A stretch of 23,815 nucleotides of DNA, taken from a virus. Within the stretch, counting starts at the first letter, position 1, and each line of letters opens with the position of its first letter. Both the position numbers and the translations under genes were made by a program. Shown here one piece after another: positions 3,468 through 14,919 of this stretch. The stretch is from IMG/VR virus record IMGVR_UViG_3300020193_000137, positions 1-23,815 of that record. The stretch is one strand, 5' to 3'. The notes below the pieces were generated by a model, which was given only the letters and a program-made list of their open reading frames with translations, was not told the origin of the DNA and searched no databases.

Positions 3468-3727
3468 CTACGTCAGAGACGGACGAGTGCTGGGGTGTTT
3501 CGCCGTTCGCACCGGAGCAAAGCGCGCCGATTAGCGCGCACTGCTTCGGCGACTGCGGCAAAGTCAGCGTCGGCAGTGCGCTCGCCGCGCGAGAGTTCGG
3601 CGGGCTCTTTCTGTGCCGCGAAACGAATTGCCCGTATGAGTTGAGCGTGACGCGCGACATCGGAGAAGCTGACTTGTTCGGCAAGACCTACGCTGTGCAT
3701 TTGCGCGTGTTGCGGCCCGAATCGTGA
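3464..3727 (+). CDS. hypothetical protein with four spaced cysteines
   Basis: An 87-residue protein starting at a GTG that overlaps the previous stop. An earlier in-frame ATG at 3410 would lie inside the neighbour and is less likely. It carries CFGDC (27-31) and, 20 residues on, CRETNC (51-56). The paired spacing (Cys-x3-Cys and Cys-x4-Cys) suggests a zinc-ribbon-like or rubredoxin-like site, which is inference only. The rest is beta-rich (FGGLFLC, YAVHLRVLR). No family was recognised. It is coupled to the DUF1064 nuclease gene by a shared GTGA, so the two are likely co-translated. Confidence 0.6.
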   Translation: MTTSETDECWGVSPFAPEQSAPISAHCFGDCGKVSVGSALAAREFGGLFLCRETNCPYELSVTRDIGEADLFGKTYAVHLRVLRPES

Positions 3728-4202: not shown

Positions 4203-4453
4203 ATGCCTACCAATTTGAAGCGATTGTGCGCGAACTGCACAAAGTCGCGAACTCGATCACGCCGACTGATGTTCTACCCGCAACGACGGATAACGGCAGG
4301 AGCGTGTCCAGCCTTACGGAGGCAGTGATGTATCTCGGCGACGGACTCATGGCCGTGGCGGACGCAATCAGAGGCGCGAGCGACAACGGAGTCAACGCAA
4401 TCGATCGCATCGATCAACTGTTCCAGTTGCGGGGTGGCGGCAATGCGGAGTAG
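4199..4453 (+). CDS. hypothetical helical protein
   Basis: An 84-residue protein of unknown function. The start at 4199 is set by AAGGAGGA just upstream; a longer frame from 3983 lacks support. It looks like two or three helices (NAYQFEAIVRELHKVANSI, SLTEAVMYLGDGLMAVADAI, NAIDRIDQLFQL) with a Gly-rich end. There is no membrane segment or known motif. It overlaps the next gene by 11 bases. Confidence 0.6.
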   Translation: MNAYQFEAIVRELHKVANSITPTDVLPATTDNGRSVSSLTEAVMYLGDGLMAVADAIRGASDNGVNAIDRIDQLFQLRGGGNAE

Positions 4454-5045
4454 ACGCGAGAACGAGGAAATGCGCCGCGTGATGTCGAAGGCGCGCTCGC
4501 TCCTCGACGCTGCGGACAGGGCGCATACGGACGCTTGGATTAGGCGCAATAAACGCATCGCGCGCGTCGTCGAAACACTGTACGACGCAGACATCAGCCC
4601 GCTCTATTTCGCGTGCTGGTATTGCCTTGAGTCGGGCGATTCGATGCTGGTCGACTGGTTGTTCAAGCCGCCGGATGACCTATCCTACATGCGGAAAGAG
4701 GCGAAGCACTGGGTGCGCGCGCACGCTGGCGGCTCAGCACCGCAAGCTATGCTGCGCGAAGAATCCAGCGAGGCCGAGGAAGAGGCCGATGACGAGGACG
4801 ATGACGACGCGCCGCCAGTGAACGGCGACCTGTTCCAAGAGCGCGCACCAGCAGCAGCGGAGGAAGACGATGAGGAGGAAGACGAAGACGCGGGAAACGA
4901 AGACGCCACCGCACACTCATCGGACGTACTTGCCGCTATCGGCGCAAGCCTGCCGCCCGACGACGAACTCGAAGAACTCGCCGCCCTCGACGACGACGCC
5001 CTCCTGCGAAGAGCAGGCGCTTACGGCTACCGTTCTGATGACTGA
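4443..5045 (+). CDS. hypothetical protein with highly acidic C-terminus
   Basis: A 200-residue protein in two parts. Residues 1-100 are mixed and helical: a basic start (MRSRRENEEMRRVMSKARS), an aromatic/Cys patch (LYFACWYCLESGD) and KPPDDLSYMRKEAKHWV. Residues 105-200 are extremely acidic and low-complexity, with blocks such as EEEADDEDDDD and EEDDEEEDEDAG. I recognise no family. Acidic tails of this kind occur in chaperone-like proteins and in DNA mimics that block DNA-binding host enzymes. Neither role is demonstrated. The ATG at 4443 is chosen because GGGGTGG lies about 6 bases upstream; a GTG at 4434 is possible. It overlaps both neighbours. Confidence 0.65.
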   Translation: MRSRRENEEMRRVMSKARSLLDAADRAHTDAWIRRNKRIARVVETLYDADISPLYFACWYCLESGDSMLVDWLFKPPDDLSYMRKEAKHWVRAHAGGSAPQAMLREESSEAEEEADDEDDDDAPPVNGDLFQERAPAAAEEDDEEEDEDAGNEDATAHSSDVLAAIGASLPPDDELEELAALDDDALLRRAGAYGYRSDD

Positions 5046-5292
5046 ATTCGCCGAGCAGGCCGCCGCTATCGAGCGCCGCGTGGCGCACCGCGCAGGTTGC
5101 TATCAGGTTGCGGTCTGGTTATCCGAGGCCGGCGAGTTCGCGTGGCGCGCGGTGTCAGGGCAAGACGGCTATCAGTCATGGGCGACGGAACTGCGCGGCT
5201 CCGAGGTGGGCGTGTACGACAGGCGCGTCAAGGCGTCGGACATTCTCGACGACCTGATCGCTACCGCTCGAAGTTACGGGTGGGCAGTGTGA
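5038..5292 (+). CDS. hypothetical small protein
   Basis: An 84-residue protein starting at ATG 5038, eight bases inside the previous gene. A longer frame from 4870 would run antiparallel in composition through the acidic gene and is rejected. It reads as a helix (MTEFAEQAAAIERRVAHRAG), a beta-hairpin-like part (YQVAVWLSEAGEFAWRAV) and a C-terminal helix (ASDILDDLIATARSYGW). No family was recognised. The stop overlaps the terminase small-subunit GTG, so it may be co-translated with the packaging genes. Confidence 0.6.
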   Translation: MTEFAEQAAAIERRVAHRAGCYQVAVWLSEAGEFAWRAVSGQDGYQSWATELRGSEVGVYDRRVKASDILDDLIATARSYGWAV

Positions 5293-5990
5293 ACCGGGCC
5301 AAGTCGCGCGGGCCAGCGCTCGCCGCGGTAGATGGCCTGGACGGCCGGGCGCTGCTGTTCGCGCTCTCGTGGGCGGCGACCGGCGACACCAAGCGCGCGC
5401 TCAAGCGGGCGTACCCGTCTTGCTCGTCGTGGAGCCAGGAACGGCGCTACGTGGTCGGCAAGCAACTCGAGTCCGACTCGCGCGTCATGGCGCTCGTGCT
5501 CGAACTGCGCATGCCGGCGCACCGCGAGCAGATGGTCAACTACGAATGGTTGGTGACCGAGGGCACGAGGCAGTACTACGCGGCGCTTAAGAGCGACAAC
5601 GCGACGCTCGCGCTCGACGCGCTCAAGGTGCTATCGCGCATCGTGCTCGGCGATTCGACTGCGATTCGGCCGAAGCGGATACTAGACTCAACAGACCTGA
5701 CAGACGCTGAGATTATCGACTATGACGACGGCAACGAGGGCGGCGAGCCTGCGGCGGGTGAGGGACAAGGCGCGACGGGACTTGGCGAGTTACGCACTGT
5801 TCTGCGGCGACTACCGTCCAGCCCGGCACCACCGCCTCATGTGCGCGAGTCTGCAGATGGCGATCGAAGGTTATTTGAAGCGGGTGATGATACTGGCCCC
5901 GCCGGGAGCCGCGAAGTCGACGTACTCCAGCGTCTACGCACCCTCCTGGGCACTCGCGAAGATCCAGGGCCTGCAACTCCTGGCGTGTAG
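5289..5990 (+). CDS. terS: terminase small subunit (putative)
   Basis: A 233-residue protein immediately before the large terminase. Residues 28-60 (SWAATGDTKRALKRAYPS, then SSWSQERRY) resemble the N-terminal DNA-binding helix-turn-helix of small terminase subunits, where a GN/GD-x-AYRRAYP-type motif is common. A middle helical part (YYAALKSDNATLALDALKVLSRIVLGD) would form the oligomerisation core. The small subunit recognises viral DNA and recruits the large-subunit motor. The GTG start is coupled to the upstream stop. Oddly, no stop occurs where the large-subunit gene begins at 5722. The frame stays open to 5990, giving 88 Gly/Pro/charge-rich residues from an out-of-frame 269-base overlap. 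Position strongly supports the call; sequence support is moderate. Confidence 0.65.
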   Translation: MNRAKSRGPALAAVDGLDGRALLFALSWAATGDTKRALKRAYPSCSSWSQERRYVVGKQLESDSRVMALVLELRMPAHREQMVNYEWLVTEGTRQYYAALKSDNATLALDALKVLSRIVLGDSTAIRPKRILDSTDLTDAEIIDYDDGNEGGEPAAGEGQGATGLGELRTVLRRLPSSPAPPPHVRESADGDRRLFEAGDDTGPAGSREVDVLQRLRTLLGTREDPGPATPGV

Positions 5991-8527: not shown

Positions 8528-10918
8528 GTGGCGGCACAACCGCGCACAGTCTATCGAGACATCGACGGCGGGCACGAAAAATGCCCGCCGTTGCTCGAAC
8601 GTCTTTCCGAGCAGATCGAGGACGCGCTCAAAAACCACGAAGCCAGGGTCGCGGAGGCAGAGAAAAACCGACGCTACTCGACCGGCAGGATGCACGACGA
8701 CGGCCGCCCCGGCCTCGTGCGAACGAATCTGATCTACGCCAACACCGCAGCGATCATCCCATCCGTTTACGCCAAGAATCCCGACATCTCAGTGTCGCCG
8801 AGCACGAGCGTGTCGCCTCGGCGGTATGCAGTGGTCAAGCAGTTCGCGCGCACCATGGAGGTCGTGCTCTCGCGCGCGTTCGTGCATGAGACGAGACTCA
8901 AGCAGCGCGTGCGCTCAGCGCTGTATTCCGTTCTGAACTGCGGCGACGGTTGGTTGAAGCTCGGATTCCAGAGCGACCCGAAGTACGACCCGCTCCTGCA
9001 GGCGCGCATCAACGACACGCAGGACAACATCGCGGTCGTGCGCCGGTTGATGGCGGACACCGAAGACCCCGAACAGATTTCTCAGCACGAGACGAAGCAG
9101 GCTGAACTTGAGCAAGCGCTAAACGGCCTGATGGAAACCGCCGAGGTTGCGGTGCAGGCCGGGCTCGTGCTCGATCGCGTCCCGTCCGAGGACGTGCTCG
9201 TGCTCGACCACACGATCACCGACTTCGACTACTACGTGCAGGCCGAAGCGCTCGACCACATGGTGTGGATGACCAAGGACAGGTACATCGACCTGTACGG
9301 TGAATGGCCGAAGCAAGGCTCGCCGAGCGTGTACAACCAACGCGACTTGACGAACAAGCGCGTGGAGAGCGCGGCGCAGAAAAGACCAGCTGAACTCGTG
9401 TGCGTACACGAGGTGTGGTCGCTCAGGCTCGGGCGCGTGTTTACGTTCGGGCACGGGTCGAAGTACTGGGCGCGCGAACCGTACTCACCGCAGCGTATGC
9501 CCGAGCGCTGGTATCCGTTCTTCCGCATAGGTTGGAATTTCCTGGACTCCTCGTGCCACGCGCTCGCGGACGTATCTCTGTGGCGCGAGTTGCAGGACGA
9601 GTACAACAAGTCGCGAACGCAATGGGCCGAGCATCGCGAGGATTCGATGCCAGTGCGCGTCGTGCGCGGCGGCGGCTCGCTTACCGATGACGACATCAAC
9701 AACATCAAGAACCGCAAGTCGCGCGACATCGTCGTCGTCGAAGGTCGCCCCGGCGACCCGATCCGAAACGACATGGCCGAGTTGCCTGCCATTCCGATCG
9801 ACCCCGCCGTGTACGACACGACACCGATACGCTCCGACATGGAAATGGTTGCTGGCCGTGGCGACGCGAGCGTCGGCGGCATCATCCAGGCGAAGACCGC
9901 GACCGAGGCCGAGATCCAGCAAGCCGGTCTCGTCAGCCGGTCCGATTTCCGGCGCGACACAGTCGAGGATGTAATCCGCGACATGGCGGTCGCTGCAGCG
10001 CAGATACTCTTGCAGGAACTCACCGTCGCACAGGTGCAGTACATCGCTGGCGAGGGCGCGGTCTGGCCGCAGATGGCGCGCGAGGAAGTGTTCTCGCTGG
10101 TCGAAATCGAGGTGCGCTCGGGCTCGACCGGCAAACCGAATCGCGCGTTCGAGCAGGAACGATGGGAGAAGTTACTTCCGCACCTGCGCGAGTCGATCCA
10201 GATGATTTACGAGTTGCAGGTCGCCGGCAATCATCAACTCGCGAACGCCATGCGTCAGATTCTCAAGGAGACCCTGCGCAAGTACGACGAGCGATTCGAC
10301 CTCGAAGAGATTCTCGGGCCTGAGCAGTCGATGGACGACGCTTCGCAATCGCAAATGGCGCAGATGCAGCAGCAGATCCAGCAGTTGACGACGGCGCTCG
10401 AACAGGCGCAGCAGCAACTCCAGAGCTTCGACCAGGAGAAGCAGCGCCAGCAGGGCGTCGACCTTGAGTACCGCGAACGCGAACTTGCGCTCAAGGAACA
10501 ACAAGTGCTCGACGCGCACGACTCCGCGCAAGCCAAGAACGACGTGCAGGCCGCGCTCGACGTGCAGGCCGCCGCGCACCGCGCCGCGCTCGAAGAGCAG
10601 CGCCGCGAGTTCGAGCACAAGGCCGAGGTCGCCGCGCTACGGCAACAGGTGCAGGACGCGACGAGCGAAGCGCAGCGCCGCCTCAAAGCGGTCGAGCAGA
10701 GCGCCGCCGAGCGGGAAGAACAGGAGAGCGAGGCCGTTTCGCCCGTTGCTGAATTGGTGCAGGCGATGTTTGGTCAGATCGACGCCATGCGCGGCAGCAT
10801 CGAGGATTCAGAGCGCGCGCGCAATGAGCGCATCGCTATCGTGTCGGAAGCCATCGCTTCAGGCGACCAGCAATCACTGCGCGATGCCGCGCGCCGCTTG
10901 TCGGAGACCGCGCATTGA
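8528..10918 (+). CDS. portal protein
   Basis: A 796-residue protein matching large podovirus-type portals in size, context and sequence style. The portal is a dodecameric ring at one head vertex through which DNA is packaged and ejected. The N-terminus carries the motif NLIYANTAAIIPSVYAKNPDI (67-87). Core segments include ALYSVLNCGDGWLKLGF, DFDYYVQAEALDHMVWM, WYPFFRIGWNFLDSS, SLWRELQDEYNKSRTQ and GRGDASVGGIIQAKTATEAEIQQAG. From about residue 600 to 735 a long Gln/Glu/Ala-rich coiled coil (QMAQMQQQIQQLTTALEQA...) fits the helical barrel that extends into the head in P22-like portals. The GTG start lies two codons after the previous stop in the same frame, with no strong ribosome binding site, so coupling by reinitiation is likely. 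Confidence 0.88.
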   Translation: MAAQPRTVYRDIDGGHEKCPPLLERLSEQIEDALKNHEARVAEAEKNRRYSTGRMHDDGRPGLVRTNLIYANTAAIIPSVYAKNPDISVSPSTSVSPRRYAVVKQFARTMEVVLSRAFVHETRLKQRVRSALYSVLNCGDGWLKLGFQSDPKYDPLLQARINDTQDNIAVVRRLMADTEDPEQISQHETKQAELEQALNGLMETAEVAVQAGLVLDRVPSEDVLVLDHTITDFDYYVQAEALDHMVWMTKDRYIDLYGEWPKQGSPSVYNQRDLTNKRVESAAQKRPAELVCVHEVWSLRLGRVFTFGHGSKYWAREPYSPQRMPERWYPFFRIGWNFLDSSCHALADVSLWRELQDEYNKSRTQWAEHREDSMPVRVVRGGGSLTDDDINNIKNRKSRDIVVVEGRPGDPIRNDMAELPAIPIDPAVYDTTPIRSDMEMVAGRGDASVGGIIQAKTATEAEIQQAGLVSRSDFRRDTVEDVIRDMAVAAAQILLQELTVAQVQYIAGEGAVWPQMAREEVFSLVEIEVRSGSTGKPNRAFEQERWEKLLPHLRESIQMIYELQVAGNHQLANAMRQILKETLRKYDERFDLEEILGPEQSMDDASQSQMAQMQQQIQQLTTALEQAQQQLQSFDQEKQRQQGVDLEYRERELALKEQQVLDAHDSAQAKNDVQAALDVQAAAHRAALEEQRREFEHKAEVAALRQQVQDATSEAQRRLKAVEQSAAEREEQESEAVSPVAELVQAMFGQIDAMRGSIEDSERARNERIAIVSEAIASGDQQSLRDAARRLSETAH

Positions 10919-11139
10919 TCGCGCTCGCGTTACTCGCGTCTCTCGGCACGACCGTGGTCTCGTGTGAACGATTCGCGTCAGCAGTATCCGAAGTAGAGCA
11001 GTTCATGCAGGCACGGCCTGACGCGGCCGTTCGCGATTACATCGTTGAGCAAGGTGACACGATTGCGCTCAACCGCGCGTACAACTACATCTTGGCTGGC
11101 GGAGACTACGCATCCGCCGAGAGCATGTGTGGTGCGTGA
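10915..11139 (+). CDS. small exported protein, possible lipoprotein
   Basis: A 74-residue protein starting at a TTG that overlaps the portal stop (TTGA). Residues 1-16 are hydrophobic (MIALALLASLGTTVVS) and are followed by Cys17. VVS-C fits a lipobox, though the n-region lacks the usual basic residues. The mature part is acidic and helical (VSEVEQFMQARPDAAVRDYIVEQGD, ALNRAYNYILAGGDYASAE). It opens the lysis module, so an envelope role is plausible. Function is unknown; a non-lipidated secreted protein or a membrane-anchored peptide is also possible. Confidence 0.5.
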   Translation: MIALALLASLGTTVVSCERFASAVSEVEQFMQARPDAAVRDYIVEQGDTIALNRAYNYILAGGDYASAESMCGA

Positions 11140-11345
11140 TGGAATCGTTATTCGCAGAAATCGCAAAGACGCTCGGACCGGCTGGCATCGGCCTTATCGC
11201 AGCTATCGTTTTCTACAAGGACGCGCGCGATCTACGCAATCAGGTTATGACAGCATTCATCGAAGACACAAAGCTTAAGGTGCTGCTCACCTCGCAGCTT
11301 GAACAGTTGACGCGTGTTATCGAGAACTTGAAGACCAAAACATGA
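11139..11345 (+). CDS. small membrane protein in lysis module, holin candidate
   Basis: A 68-residue protein with one clear transmembrane segment at about 14-29 (LGPAGIGLIAAIVFYK) and a cytoplasmic-looking helical tail (DLRNQVMTAFIEDTKLKVLLTSQLEQLTRVIENLKTKT) with heptad-like leucines. The ATG overlaps the previous stop (TGATG). Small single-pass proteins with a coiled tail in this position may be holins, antiholins or accessory lysis factors. The base composition is AT-richer than the neighbours, suggesting separate acquisition. No family was recognised. Confidence 0.55.
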   Translation: MESLFAEIAKTLGPAGIGLIAAIVFYKDARDLRNQVMTAFIEDTKLKVLLTSQLEQLTRVIENLKTKT

Positions 11346-11524
11346 GAGCAGTTATGTTCAAATCGACAACAGTAGCAGTAAGAGTTCTTGACGACAACAT
11401 TGCTGCTACAGCAGCGGTCATGGAAAAACTTACTGCTCTGGTCGACGAAGCGACTGTAGTTCTGGATCGGCGCAAGGTTGACATCCCTGTTGAAGTTGAT
11501 CGAAGAAAGGAGAAAGGCGTATGA
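11342..11524 (+). CDS. hypothetical small protein
   Basis: A 60-residue soluble-looking protein coupled by ATGA at its start and by ATGA to the next gene. A second in-frame ATG lies four codons downstream. It is helical and valine-rich (TTVAVRVLDDNIAATAAVMEKLTALVDEATVVLDRR) and ends with a charged tail (VEVDRRKEKGV). No membrane segment or known motif is present. It lies in the AT-rich island; 11341-11400 is about 40% GC by hand count. Confidence 0.5.
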   Translation: MRAVMFKSTTVAVRVLDDNIAATAAVMEKLTALVDEATVVLDRRKVDIPVEVDRRKEKGV

Positions 11525-11700
11525 AAGGCTGGAAGACTCTGCTCGCTGGCGTCGGCACCATCCTGCTCGGCGCGTCACAAATCGTACTCGCGTTCGCGAA
11601 GCCGGAGGCCGGCACGAGTGTCGAGGCCGGCATGCAGACTATGCTCGCCGGGCTCGCGGTCGTGGGCATCGGCCACAAGTTGGACAAAGCCGCGTCGTGA
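11521..11700 (+). CDS. putative holin, two membrane segments
   Basis: A 59-residue protein. The start is firm: AAGGAGAAAGG precedes the ATG, which overlaps the previous stop. A basic N-terminus (MKGWK) leads into a first hydrophobic segment (6-26, ending SQIVLAFA). After a polar loop (KPEAGTSVEAGMQT) comes a second segment (MLAGLAVVGIGHK, 41-53) and a basic tail. Two short membrane helices and a total of 60 residues fit a class II holin, which permeabilises the inner membrane to release endolysin at a programmed time. Its place just before spanin-like and SleB hydrolase genes supports this. It could instead be one of several small lysis regulators, since the neighbour at 11139 also has a membrane segment. 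Confidence 0.6.
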   Translation: MKGWKTLLAGVGTILLGASQIVLAFAKPEAGTSVEAGMQTMLAGLAVVGIGHKLDKAAS

Positions 11701-11915
11701 TGTTGGAGGCGCTCGTCGGTCTGCTCGCCGCAGCCGGCGTGGCGTTGCTCGTGTACGTCGGCATGCGTTGGGAACGCGCGCGCATTCAGTACGAGACCGA
11801 CGCTGAGGTCGCGCGCATCAAAGACAAAGTCGAGCAAATCCGCAAGACAGTTGGCGGCATGAGCGACGACGAGCTGGACGACATGGTGTATGGACCGAGA
11901 AGCAAAAACGAGTAA
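11700..11915 (+). CDS. small membrane-anchored protein, possible inner-membrane spanin
   Basis: A 71-residue protein with an N-terminal membrane anchor (residues 4-21, ALVGLLAAAGVALLVYVG) followed by a charged helix (RWERARIQYETDAEVARIKDKVEQIRKTV) and an acidic end (GMSDDELDDMVYG). This topology matches Rz-type inner-membrane spanins, which link to an outer-membrane lipoprotein and disrupt the outer membrane in the last lysis step. It is short for that family, so the assignment is tentative. The ATG shares its A with the holin stop (TGATG). The gene end is overlapped by the zinc-ribbon gene. Confidence 0.5.
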   Translation: MLEALVGLLAAAGVALLVYVGMRWERARIQYETDAEVARIKDKVEQIRKTVGGMSDDELDDMVYGPRSKNE

Positions 11916-12069
11916 CGTCATCCCGTTGCACGGCAAGAGCACGGAACTCATGTGCGGGCACTGCGAGTCGAACGCGTTCAGGTTGACGAATCGCGGCGTC
12001 GAGTGCTGGGCATGCGAACGCATCATGCGGAGCCTGACATGGCACGCGCTCTCGCAGCCTGCATCGTGA
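11890..12069 (+). CDS. zinc-ribbon micro-protein overlapping the spanin-like pair
   Basis: A 59-residue protein in a different frame from its neighbours. It shares its first 26 bases with the upstream membrane-protein gene and its last 31 with the lipoprotein gene. It has two perfect Cys-x2-Cys pairs, MCGHCES (Cys22, Cys25) and ECWACER (Cys39, Cys42), the classic spacing of a small zinc ribbon. The N-terminus (TSNVIPLHGKSTEL) and a C-terminal helix are otherwise unremarkable. Chance is unlikely to yield this spacing, and the frame is needed to cover 11916-12038, which no other good gene occupies. Function is unknown; a soluble regulator is plausible. Confidence 0.6.
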   Translation: MDREAKTSNVIPLHGKSTELMCGHCESNAFRLTNRGVECWACERIMRSLTWHALSQPAS

Positions 12070-12314
12070 TGGCCGCTGCGAGTTGCGCGGCCGTGCCGGA
12101 GATAGCCTCGGGGGCGGCGAGCGCGGTCTCGGCGTACTGGTCTTATCGCAGCGCGACCGCGAAGCGCGTGCAGGTCGTGGCGCGCGAGTGCCTGTTCATG
12201 ACGACGCCCGTGTACATGAGCCGAGAGAGCACGCTGGTGCGCGAGGATAAGCTCAAGCTCGCAGAACTGAACGCGAGTTGGAATGCGATATGCGCGAAGG
12301 AGGACAGGCCGTGA
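12039..12314 (+). CDS. putative lipoprotein, outer-membrane spanin candidate
   Basis: A 91-residue exported protein. The signal region is MARALAACIVMAAAS followed by Cys16, an acceptable though atypical lipobox (Ala at -3). The mature part is Ala/Ser-rich, then carries CLFMTTPVYMSRES and KLKLAELNASWNAIC. This resembles small phage lysis lipoproteins with a paired-cysteine C-terminal domain and an xxHNxxW-like segment. Together with the membrane protein at 11700 it could form a two-component spanin. The start at 12039 is preferred to an upstream in-frame ATG because only it yields a signal sequence. The stop overlaps the endolysin GTG. Confidence 0.55.
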   Translation: MARALAACIVMAAASCAAVPEIASGAASAVSAYWSYRSATAKRVQVVARECLFMTTPVYMSRESTLVREDKLKLAELNASWNAICAKEDRP

Positions 12315-12730
12315 TACTGACGCCAGGGGATTTCGACACTGGCTGGCGCACTGTCTGGATGGAAGCGCGCGACCAGGGCGACAAAGGCATGTACGCAGTG
12401 GCCTGGGTGTTGCGCAACCGTCTCGAACGCAAAGCGAACGACCGTTGGGCGACCATCGGGCAGGTGTGCCTGGACTGGTTGCAGTTCAGTGGCTGGCGTG
12501 AGAACGACCCGAATTTCAAGCAGGCGCTCGTCGTCCCGCTCGATACGCTTGGCCAGCGCTGCGCGATTGCGTTGCTGCGCGCGATGAGCGATCCGCGCTC
12601 GATGGATCCAACAGGTGGGTCGTGTCACTACTATTCGACCAAGGTTATGAAAACTCCACCTGCATGGGCAGTAGGCAAGACGCCAGTCGCTTGTATCGGA
12701 GACCATGCATTCTTCGCGGGGGTAGTGTGA
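12311..12730 (+). CDS. SleB-family cell wall hydrolase (endolysin)
   Basis: A 139-residue peptidoglycan hydrolase of the SleB/Hydrolase_2 type. The family pattern is clear: WMEARDQGDKGMYAVAWVLRNRL (17-39) with the probable catalytic Glu19, then CLDWLQFSGW (53-62) at the family's PxQFSxW position, DPTGGSCHYY (99-108), TPPAW (115-119) and IGDHAFF (129-135). These enzymes are lytic transglycosylases that cleave the glycan backbone; as the lysis enzyme it would act in the periplasm once the holin opens the membrane. No signal peptide is present, consistent with holin dependence. The GTG start is coupled to the previous stop. It is the best-supported gene of the lysis module. Confidence 0.88.
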   Translation: MILTPGDFDTGWRTVWMEARDQGDKGMYAVAWVLRNRLERKANDRWATIGQVCLDWLQFSGWRENDPNFKQALVVPLDTLGQRCAIALLRAMSDPRSMDPTGGSCHYYSTKVMKTPPAWAVGKTPVACIGDHAFFAGVV

Positions 12731-12813
12731 TGACAGCAGTCACTCTCTACGTCATCGTCATGCTCACCAACTACGGGTCCAGTGATGGATTTGAGAACCT
12801 TGATCGACTCTGA
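12730..12813 (+). CDS. possible micro-ORF, 27 residues
   Basis: An ATG shares its A with the endolysin stop (TGATG) and opens 27 codons that overlap the start of the next gene. The product has a short hydrophobic stretch (VTLYVIVMLTNYG). It may be a tiny membrane peptide or only a translational bridge that hands ribosomes to the ATG at 12785. Evidence is limited to coupling. Confidence 0.25.
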   Translation: MTAVTLYVIVMLTNYGSSDGFENLDRL

Positions 12814-13234
12814 TCCAGCGAATGCGGCGCGCTCGGATCAGGAAGTGCTCGACTGGCTACGGCAGGAAATACCAGTGCTAGGGCATGTATCACACGGCGC
12901 ATTGCTGGCAGTGTGCGCGACCTACGATTTGATCGTGCCGTGGGAAATAGCCAAGGCGGATGCTGGCAACGTAGCCATTTCTATCCCCAACACGACGATC
13001 AACAAGCGCGGTCTCGCGGCGGCGGCGCTGCGCGTGCTGGATCGCGGCGAAGGTCTCGACCTGGGCGACCCGGATACGGGGCCGATGCTCGATGCGATGG
13101 TTGCATTTGATTTGATGTCGTCTACTGCGCGCACTGCGCTTGACACCAAGGCGTCGACGATGGAACCGAGGCACAAGGCGAATGGCATTGACCGGGTCAA
13201 GATAGGCATCGTTGCAAGAGCACGTAATGGGTAG
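12785..13234 (+). CDS. hypothetical phage protein
   Basis: A 149-residue protein of unknown function. The opening MDLRTLIDSDPANAARSDQEVLDWLRQE resembles a family of small tail- or lysis-adjacent phage proteins that begin with a DPAN..xSDQEVLD-type helix-rich segment. The middle (WEIAKADAGNVAISIP, KRGLAAAALRVLDRGEGLDLGDP) and end (TARTALDTKASTMEP) look helical. ATG 12785 is preferred to the GTG three bases earlier. Its TAG at 13232-13234 abuts the methyltransferase remnant, so the C-terminus may itself have been altered by the rearrangement. Confidence 0.6.
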   Translation: MDLRTLIDSDPANAARSDQEVLDWLRQEIPVLGHVSHGALLAVCATYDLIVPWEIAKADAGNVAISIPNTTINKRGLAAAALRVLDRGEGLDLGDPDTGPMLDAMVAFDLMSSTARTALDTKASTMEPRHKANGIDRVKIGIVARARNG

Positions 13235-13410
13235 CGTTCGGGAAGATTCTCGATGAGGTTGTCAGCGGTGACGTGCTCGCCAAGCACCGGCAGATCGGCA
13301 ACGCTGTACCCGTGGAGTTCAGTCGAAGACTCTGCGAGGCGGTGCGCCAGATGCTTGACGGGGAGTGGTGTCCGCCGGAGCGGCAGTTGCAGGCCGAGCT
13401 TGGCCTTTGA
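13228..13410 (+). pseudogene. C-terminal remnant of a C5 cytosine DNA methyltransferase
   Basis: One frame, open from the codon after a TAA at 13225-13227 to a TGA at 13408-13410, encodes the segment HRQIGNAVPVEF (13285-13320) followed by SRRLCEAVRQML. RQIGNAVP is the diagnostic motif X at the C-terminal end of cytosine-5 DNA methyltransferases, and a helix of the SRRLCEAVRQML type normally follows it. Upstream motifs (the FxGxG cofactor loop, the PCQ catalytic loop, ENV) are absent, and the frame is closed immediately before this piece. It is therefore a relic of a gene that once modified cytosines, probably to evade restriction. A GTG at 13273 could start a 45-residue peptide, but no ribosome binding site is evident. 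Confidence 0.65.
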
Positions 13411-13492
13411 GCGAATTCGTTGAACCGCTTCCAGCGTCTTACTCAAAACCCGCCACAAGATGGGGTCGGATCTCGCCGTGGCCGGCGGCCCT

Positions 13493-13562
13493 AACGTGGG
13501 AACGTGGTAACGAAAACGTGGGAATATGGGAAAAAGTGAGTTCGTTGCCACGTTTCCACGTT
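13493..13562 (+). repeat. AACGTGG direct and inverted repeat cluster
   Basis: AACGTGG occurs at 13493-13499, 13501-13507 and 13515-13521. Its complement CCACGTT occurs at 13548-13554 and 13556-13562. The outer arms AACGTGGGAACGTGG (13493-13507) and CCACGTTTCCACGTT (13548-13562) form a 15-base inverted repeat with one mismatch around a 40-base spacer. AACGTGGGAA is also repeated exactly at 13493 and 13515. The layout fits an operator or iteron-like protein-binding array more than a terminator, since the arms lie too far apart and no U-tract follows. Confidence 0.6.
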
Positions 13563-13654
13563 GCAATTCCGACATTTTGTCTCGACGTGCAAGATCCGTT
13601 TCATCATCTTCAACGAATTGGGCGTTGCGTTCGCGTTCACGCATCGATGTCTAT
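13563..13654 (+). other. AT-rich gene-poor stretch
   Basis: With the remnant and repeat cluster before it, this is part of a 420-base stretch (13235-13654) lacking a credible intact gene. 13561-13620 is about 42% GC by hand count. Frames exist (for example from ATG 13526 on the plus strand, and minus-strand frames), but their products are Ser/Arg-rich shadows without motifs. I see no confident promoter. It may be a decayed moron or the leader of the next ORF. Confidence 0.4.
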
Positions 13655-13849
13655 ATGCTGATCGCGCCTGATGGCACCAACTATCCAGCCCAGCCGGGCA
13701 CAGGCTCCACAGAAACAGACGTGCCGGAGACGTATAACGTAGGCTATATATCGTCAATTGAGCAATCAGCGCGCGCTGCGACCGATGCTCTTTTGGCAGA
13801 GGAAGCGAAACTCTTGACGATGTTTTTGCTATTCGAGGCGTGTGATTAA
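13655..13849 (+). CDS. hypothetical small protein upstream of scaffold
   Basis: A 64-residue acidic ORF starting MLIAPDGTNYPAQPGTGST and ending in a helix with LLAEEAKLLTMFLLFEACD. The frame extends upstream to ATG 13526, but that part is Ser/Arg-rich and crosses the repeat cluster, so the later start is preferred. The ribosome binding site is poor. The stop TAA overlaps the scaffold's Shine-Dalgarno, which favours a real gene end. No family was recognised. Confidence 0.4.
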   Translation: MLIAPDGTNYPAQPGTGSTETDVPETYNVGYISSIEQSARAATDALLAEEAKLLTMFLLFEACD

Positions 13850-13860
13850 GGAGGTTTCCA

Positions 13861-14919
13861 ATGGCTGGCGAAGACGTATTTGATGGCCCAAGCGGCGGCG
13901 ATCAGCTACCGGCGGTGGCGGATGGCGGCGCTGCCGATTTAGACAATGCCAACGCGGCCGATGACCTGAGCGCAGACGAAAAGCAGGCGGCGGAAGAAAC
14001 GGCGGCGGTCGAGGCCGCAATGAAAGCGGTGTCAAAAACCACCGACGAAGAAAGGAAACCGGACCAGACGACGGATATAGCACGCTCCGATGTAGGCAAG
14101 CCGGCCGCCGACAAGACGACCGACGACCTGTACCGCATTCCGCACGGCGCGAGCGGCGAGTACCGCAAGCAGTACAAGGCCCTCTCCGACCACGCGCGCT
14201 CGATCGACACGGAGCTCGCGCAGATGCGCGAATCCGCCAAGGCGAGCGCCGAGCGCATCGGCGCGTGGGAGTCCACGCTCAAGGATGCCGGCGCGAACGC
14301 GCAGGTGCTCGCCGGGCACCTCGGTTACATCAAGGCCGTGAACTCGGGAAACCTGGAGCAGGCGCTCGCTTGGATCGAGAACGAGCGCACCGCTCTCGCG
14401 CGCGCGCTCGGCCAGCCGCTCGACGGCGTCGACGTGCTCGGTGACTTCCCTGACCTGCGCCGCCAAGTCGATGAAATGGAGATGAGCGAGAACGCCGCGC
14501 TCGAACTGGCGCGCCATCGTCGCGCCGCGCAAGCTCACCAGCACGCGGCGAACGCGCAGCATCAAGACGCTCAGCGGCACGCCGTCGAACAGCAGGCCGC
14601 GCAAGTGCGCGCGAACGGCCTCGAATCGGTCAGGGCGTGGCTATCAGAGGTCGAGAAGAATGACATCAACTACGCGGCGAAGGAACCGATCGTCGCGGCG
14701 TGGCTTGAAAAGCCCGAGACGATAGCGTCCCTGCGCGCGGTTCCACCCGAGCAGTGGATTTTCGTCGTGCGTTCGCTCTACGATTCCATTCAGTCGGCGC
14801 CCGAGCGCCGCGACCCAGGCACGCTCAGGCCGCTTCGGCCCGGAGGCCCCGGTGGTCGCGGCATGTCGAAGGATGCCGACCCGACTGACGTTGCAATGCG
14901 CGCGGCCGGTTATTTTTAG
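13861..14919 (+). CDS. head scaffolding protein (putative)
   Basis: A 352-residue protein immediately before the major capsid gene, the classic position for a scaffold. AAGGAGGT at 13848-13855 gives a very strong start. Residues 1-80 are acidic and Ala/Asp-rich, likely disordered. Residues 95-300 are highly helical with coiled-coil character (GEYRKQYKALSDHARSID, LEQALAWIENERTAL, ELARHRRAAQAHQHAA), including a His/Gln-rich stretch. The C-terminus is Pro/Gly/Arg-rich, then ends with DPTDVAMRAAGYF. A basic C-terminal region is typical for binding coat subunits. The scaffold would direct prohead assembly and then exit. The call rests mainly on position and composition, since scaffolds diverge quickly. 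Confidence 0.72.
   Translation: MAGEDVFDGPSGGDQLPAVADGGAADLDNANAADDLSADEKQAAEETAAVEAAMKAVSKTTDEERKPDQTTDIARSDVGKPAADKTTDDLYRIPHGASGEYRKQYKALSDHARSIDTELAQMRESAKASAERIGAWESTLKDAGANAQVLAGHLGYIKAVNSGNLEQALAWIENERTALARALGQPLDGVDVLGDFPDLRRQVDEMEMSENAALELARHRRAAQAHQHAANAQHQDAQRHAVEQQAAQVRANGLESVRAWLSEVEKNDINYAAKEPIVAAWLEKPETIASLRAVPPEQWIFVVRSLYDSIQSAPERRDPGTLRPLRPGGPGGRGMSKDADPTDVAMRAAGYF

Follow-up and report, generated by a model that had tools for sequence, protein, structure and literature searches.

A probable non-functional C-terminal remnant of a C5 DNA methyltransferase in the variable portal-scaffold interval of a tailed phage

A short open frame that resembles the very end of a C5 DNA methyltransferase, standing amid the structural and lysis genes of a tailed phage, raises the question of how it arrived there and whether it still has a role. 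The frame occupies positions 13228 to 13410 on the plus strand of a 23,815-nucleotide stretch of viral DNA (IMG/VR record IMGVR_UViG_3300020193_000137), the whole of which we call the window. Its translation in frame 1 begins WVAFGKILDEVVSGDVLAKHRQIGNAVPVEFSRRLCEAVRQML and reads in full WVAFGKILDEVVSGDVLAKHRQIGNAVPVEFSRRLCEAVRQMLDGEWCPPERQLQAELGL, ending at a stop at 13410; upstream, as the first-pass annotation had described, it is closed directly before the remnant by a TAA at 13225 to 13227. Detectable homology is confined to about 37 central residues, encoded on the plus strand by 13261 to 13371, which comprise methyltransferase motif X (HRQIGNAVPVEF) and the C-terminal helix. The only common start codon available, a GTG at 13273, would yield 45 residues and sits within the homologous part, and the peptide is put at 45 to 60 residues in length.

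Judged from its sequence, the segment of about 37 residues clearly derives from the C-terminus of a C5 DNA methyltransferase, with motif X and the last helix preserved. Methyltransferase profiles from PADLOC, which are independent of the remnant sequence, matched it with E-values from 0.03 down to 1e-5, and all 18 matches were to methyltransferase families (among them MTase_II, DruM, DrmMII and an orphan methyltransferase), aligned near the C-terminal end. Weak matches were also obtained to the PHROG families phrog_116 (DNA methyltransferase), phrog_23910 and phrog_13621 (E 0.018 to 0.12), and 17 of 19 matches among PDB sequences fell on motif X of DNMT1, each weak when taken alone (E 0.46 to 1.5). 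A translated pattern search of IMG/VR with the remnant peptide returned 38 viral loci, in 33 of which the peptide terminates a methyltransferase-type frame of at least 320 codons with the usual upstream sequence; in four others the frame runs past the start of the locus, and two of these (L012 and L020) are also long. A profile built from 31 viral methyltransferases, which is biased in that its members were found with the remnant as query, gave a score of 37 bits for the window frame, aligned over some 37 C-terminal columns, while none of 2000 shuffled copies of the remnant scored above 3.2 bits. Neither Pfam PF00145 nor NCBIfam gave a methyltransferase match to the remnant, even at E 10, presumably because the remnant is so short, and a search of the fragment against 349 bacterial genomes from one order, run without a positive control, found nothing at E 1e-4, a result that carries no information. 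The earlier identification of a methyltransferase relic is thus upheld by the PADLOC matches and the viral loci. We also considered whether residues 1 to 10 (WVAFGKILDE) are homologous to a region further upstream of motif X, which would indicate an internal deletion; the resemblance involves few residues and is not significant.

The rest of the enzyme is missing from the window. A six-frame profile search of its entire length detected no other methyltransferase segment, with no score above 2.3 bits beyond the motif X segment, and so bears out the earlier statement that all upstream motifs are gone: of the elements that define a C5 DNA methyltransferase (PF00145), motif X is present, and motifs I, IV (PC), VI, VIII and IX and the target recognition domain were not found. 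The base composition of the remnant by codon position (0.72/0.41/0.75) is nonetheless coding-like, and its frame preference points the same way as in real genes, which suggests that the remnant is young or still translated.

On its 5′ side, the remnant adjoins an uncharacterised ORF (12782 to 13234, plus strand) that ends in the next frame, 7 nucleotides beyond the stop closing the remnant frame, and for which we found no family match and no viral relative. Both that stop and the end of the ORF lie within about 30 bases of the onset of homology. Further upstream is the endolysin of the lysis cassette, a cell-wall hydrolase identified by its match to Hydrolase_2 (12278 to 12730, plus strand). 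On the 3′ side, the 450 bases from 13411 to 13860 carry no clear coding signal and are followed by a scaffold-like gene with a strong Shine-Dalgarno sequence (13861 to 14919, plus strand), which marks the conserved edge of a variable interval. Between the remnant and this gene lies the repeat cluster noted in the first-pass annotation, which the sequence confirms: two AACGTGGN repeats of 8-bp units, inverted to each other, span 13493 to 13562 and form a long hairpin stem of about -36 kcal/mol. The hairpin may serve in replication, packaging or the control of transcription, and its three-unit pattern is rare, occurring in 3 viral contigs and in 2 of 349 genomes. In one of these viral contigs (L111), a ACGTGGCA array at 3471 to 3489, which resembles the repeats in the window, lies about 0.9 kb from a methyltransferase-like ORF (4424 to 5884, judged by eye from its N-terminus). 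That the repeats and the methyltransferase tail were imported together from another phage was entertained and set aside, as this single contig is too little to conclude from. A DNA search of 12200 to 14200 against phages gave no match; the endolysin, the upstream ORF and the portal, used as probes in viral contigs, recovered no relatives, and a tail-region protein recovered three distant loci.

Relatives were gathered by the capsid protein, giving 67 loci (a few contigs fetched twice), most with 45 to 66% identity; none of these loci showed an orthologous stand-alone frame at the position of the remnant. Comparison of these loci shows the portal-scaffold interval, at 10918 to 13861 in the window, to be a variable insertion site within this capsid group, enlarged by about 3 to 6.7 kb in a third of the relatives (L039, L049, L057, L080, L085, L090, L096, L101 and L103 among them). 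Of the 48 loci with a portal match, 31 have it within 3 kb of the capsid, and in the other 17 the distance is 4 to 7.7 kb, with intervening ORFs that differ among relatives; in the window it is 4.1 kb. A short ORF with W-S-W-G-like repeats directly precedes the scaffold gene in four relatives (L049, L080, L096 and L101), L085 carries an endolysin in the interval, L096 has both an endolysin and a spanin there, and in L039 scaffold and capsid are separated by an endonuclease VII-like gene. When nine interval proteins from five relatives were scanned against families, four belonged to lysis or unknown-function families and five had no match, identities that cover a minority of the interval ORFs. 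The site had been proposed as a hotspot for gain and loss of anti-restriction genes. Variable cargo is borne out, and anti-restriction cargo is not, the genes recognised in the relatives examined being lytic or uncharacterised; the interval is a general variable-cargo site rather than a demonstrated anti-restriction hotspot.

Taken together, the segment is very probably a non-functional scrap of a C5 methyltransferase C-terminus. Under this explanation, some 37 codons encoding motif X and the last helix would have been left behind at a recombination joint, most plausibly formed by illegitimate recombination, in the variable stretch between the portal and scaffold genes of this tailed phage, and the piece would have no function. 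Its source may have been a whole gene that once stood here or a tail brought in by itself, and the coding-like composition suggests that the event was recent. The same joint was not found among the related loci. The first-pass annotation had read the locus more narrowly, as one from which the phage seemed to have lost a self-modification gene, which would mean that the direct ancestor had a complete methyltransferase gene here and that its deletion spared the tail. We regard such a deletion as possible but somewhat doubtful. The surviving piece is exactly a 3′ end with its stop, and coding composition has been retained, as expected from deletion in place, but no methyltransferase was detected in the fetched flanks of any of the 67 related loci, in a profile search for which known methyltransferases in the same file served as positive control. 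PF00145 matched at E ≤ 1 in 3 of 49 related records, one of them weakly; the two that exceed the family cut-off contain convincing methyltransferases, but both lie elsewhere in the record, and whereas the remnant has QIGNAVP, the one in L107 ends in GYGNAQVP, a different type, and that in L108 has no readable motif X in its open frame. The relatives are distant, so a recently gained gene could still have been lost. Import of the tail with a recombined segment and deletion of a gene acquired by this lineage alone both fit, and we consider import of the fragment at least as likely as loss of the gene in place.

Could the frame instead be a small functional gene, its product being either the C-terminal half of a split methyltransferase or a motif X peptide that stands alone? 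The short phage families phrog_23910 and phrog_13621, whose C-termini match the fragment, speak for this, but several observations make a working gene very unlikely. In both natural and engineered methyltransferases that function as complementing halves, the division comes after motif VIII and before the target recognition domain (PMC5944983), so a piece consisting of motif X, with neither the recognition domain nor motif IX, is ill suited to the split-enzyme design; in length, too, it falls far below the smaller half of such enzymes. The small subunit of such an enzyme carries the recognition domain and motifs IX to X in one polypeptide and is accompanied by a partner gene; neither feature was found, although the record may be a fragment and a partner could lie at a distance outside the window. 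A Shine-Dalgarno sequence was sought at GTG 13273 and not found, in contrast to the scaffold and capsid genes, which carry AGGAGG or AGGAG at proper spacing; this is a weak argument by itself, as some other genes in the window also lack one.

It is similarly improbable that the joint is an assembly artefact, in which a metagenomic contig wrongly joined a methyltransferase tail from another genome. The contig is from an uncultivated virus, its joint is confirmed by no relative, and both the surrounding DNA and the upstream ORF are without a match; but the remnant is flanked by portal, lysis, scaffold and capsid genes in a sensible order on one strand, and a chimeric contig would require two separate joins in a stretch of about 600 bases. 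We consider it less likely than either import or lineage-specific deletion. There is only the slightest chance that the motif X peptide of 45 residues is made and works in trans, perhaps on a C5 methyltransferase of the host that it disturbs or completes.

The remnant would then be a single dead-gene scar, in a phage group that has received little study, at a site of variable content between portal and scaffold. Such leftovers are to be expected where mosaic phage genomes have recombined, and this one represents ordinary decay that leaves the understanding of methyltransferases and of counter-defence unchanged. With C5 DNA methyltransferases (Pfam PF00145; MTase_II, DruM and DrmMII in PADLOC) it has in common motif X (QIGNAVPV) and the helix that follows, and it differs from them in missing all of the catalytic and SAM-binding motifs I to IX. 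One of the 38 viral loci contains what is apparently a second remnant, in which motif X lies in a 156-residue frame that is missing the upstream methyltransferase (L010, 5809 to 6276). The C-terminal ends of phrog_23910 and phrog_13621 resemble the remnant, but their models, at 99 and 121 positions, extend beyond motif X, and the remnant aligns over 24 positions near those ends; phrog_23910 has a further match in the C-terminal part of ordinary viral methyltransferases. C5 methyltransferases that are bisected in nature (cited in PMC5944983) resemble the remnant in that part of the enzyme is encoded separately, and they differ from it in where the protein is divided, their C-terminal portion retaining the recognition domain and motif IX.
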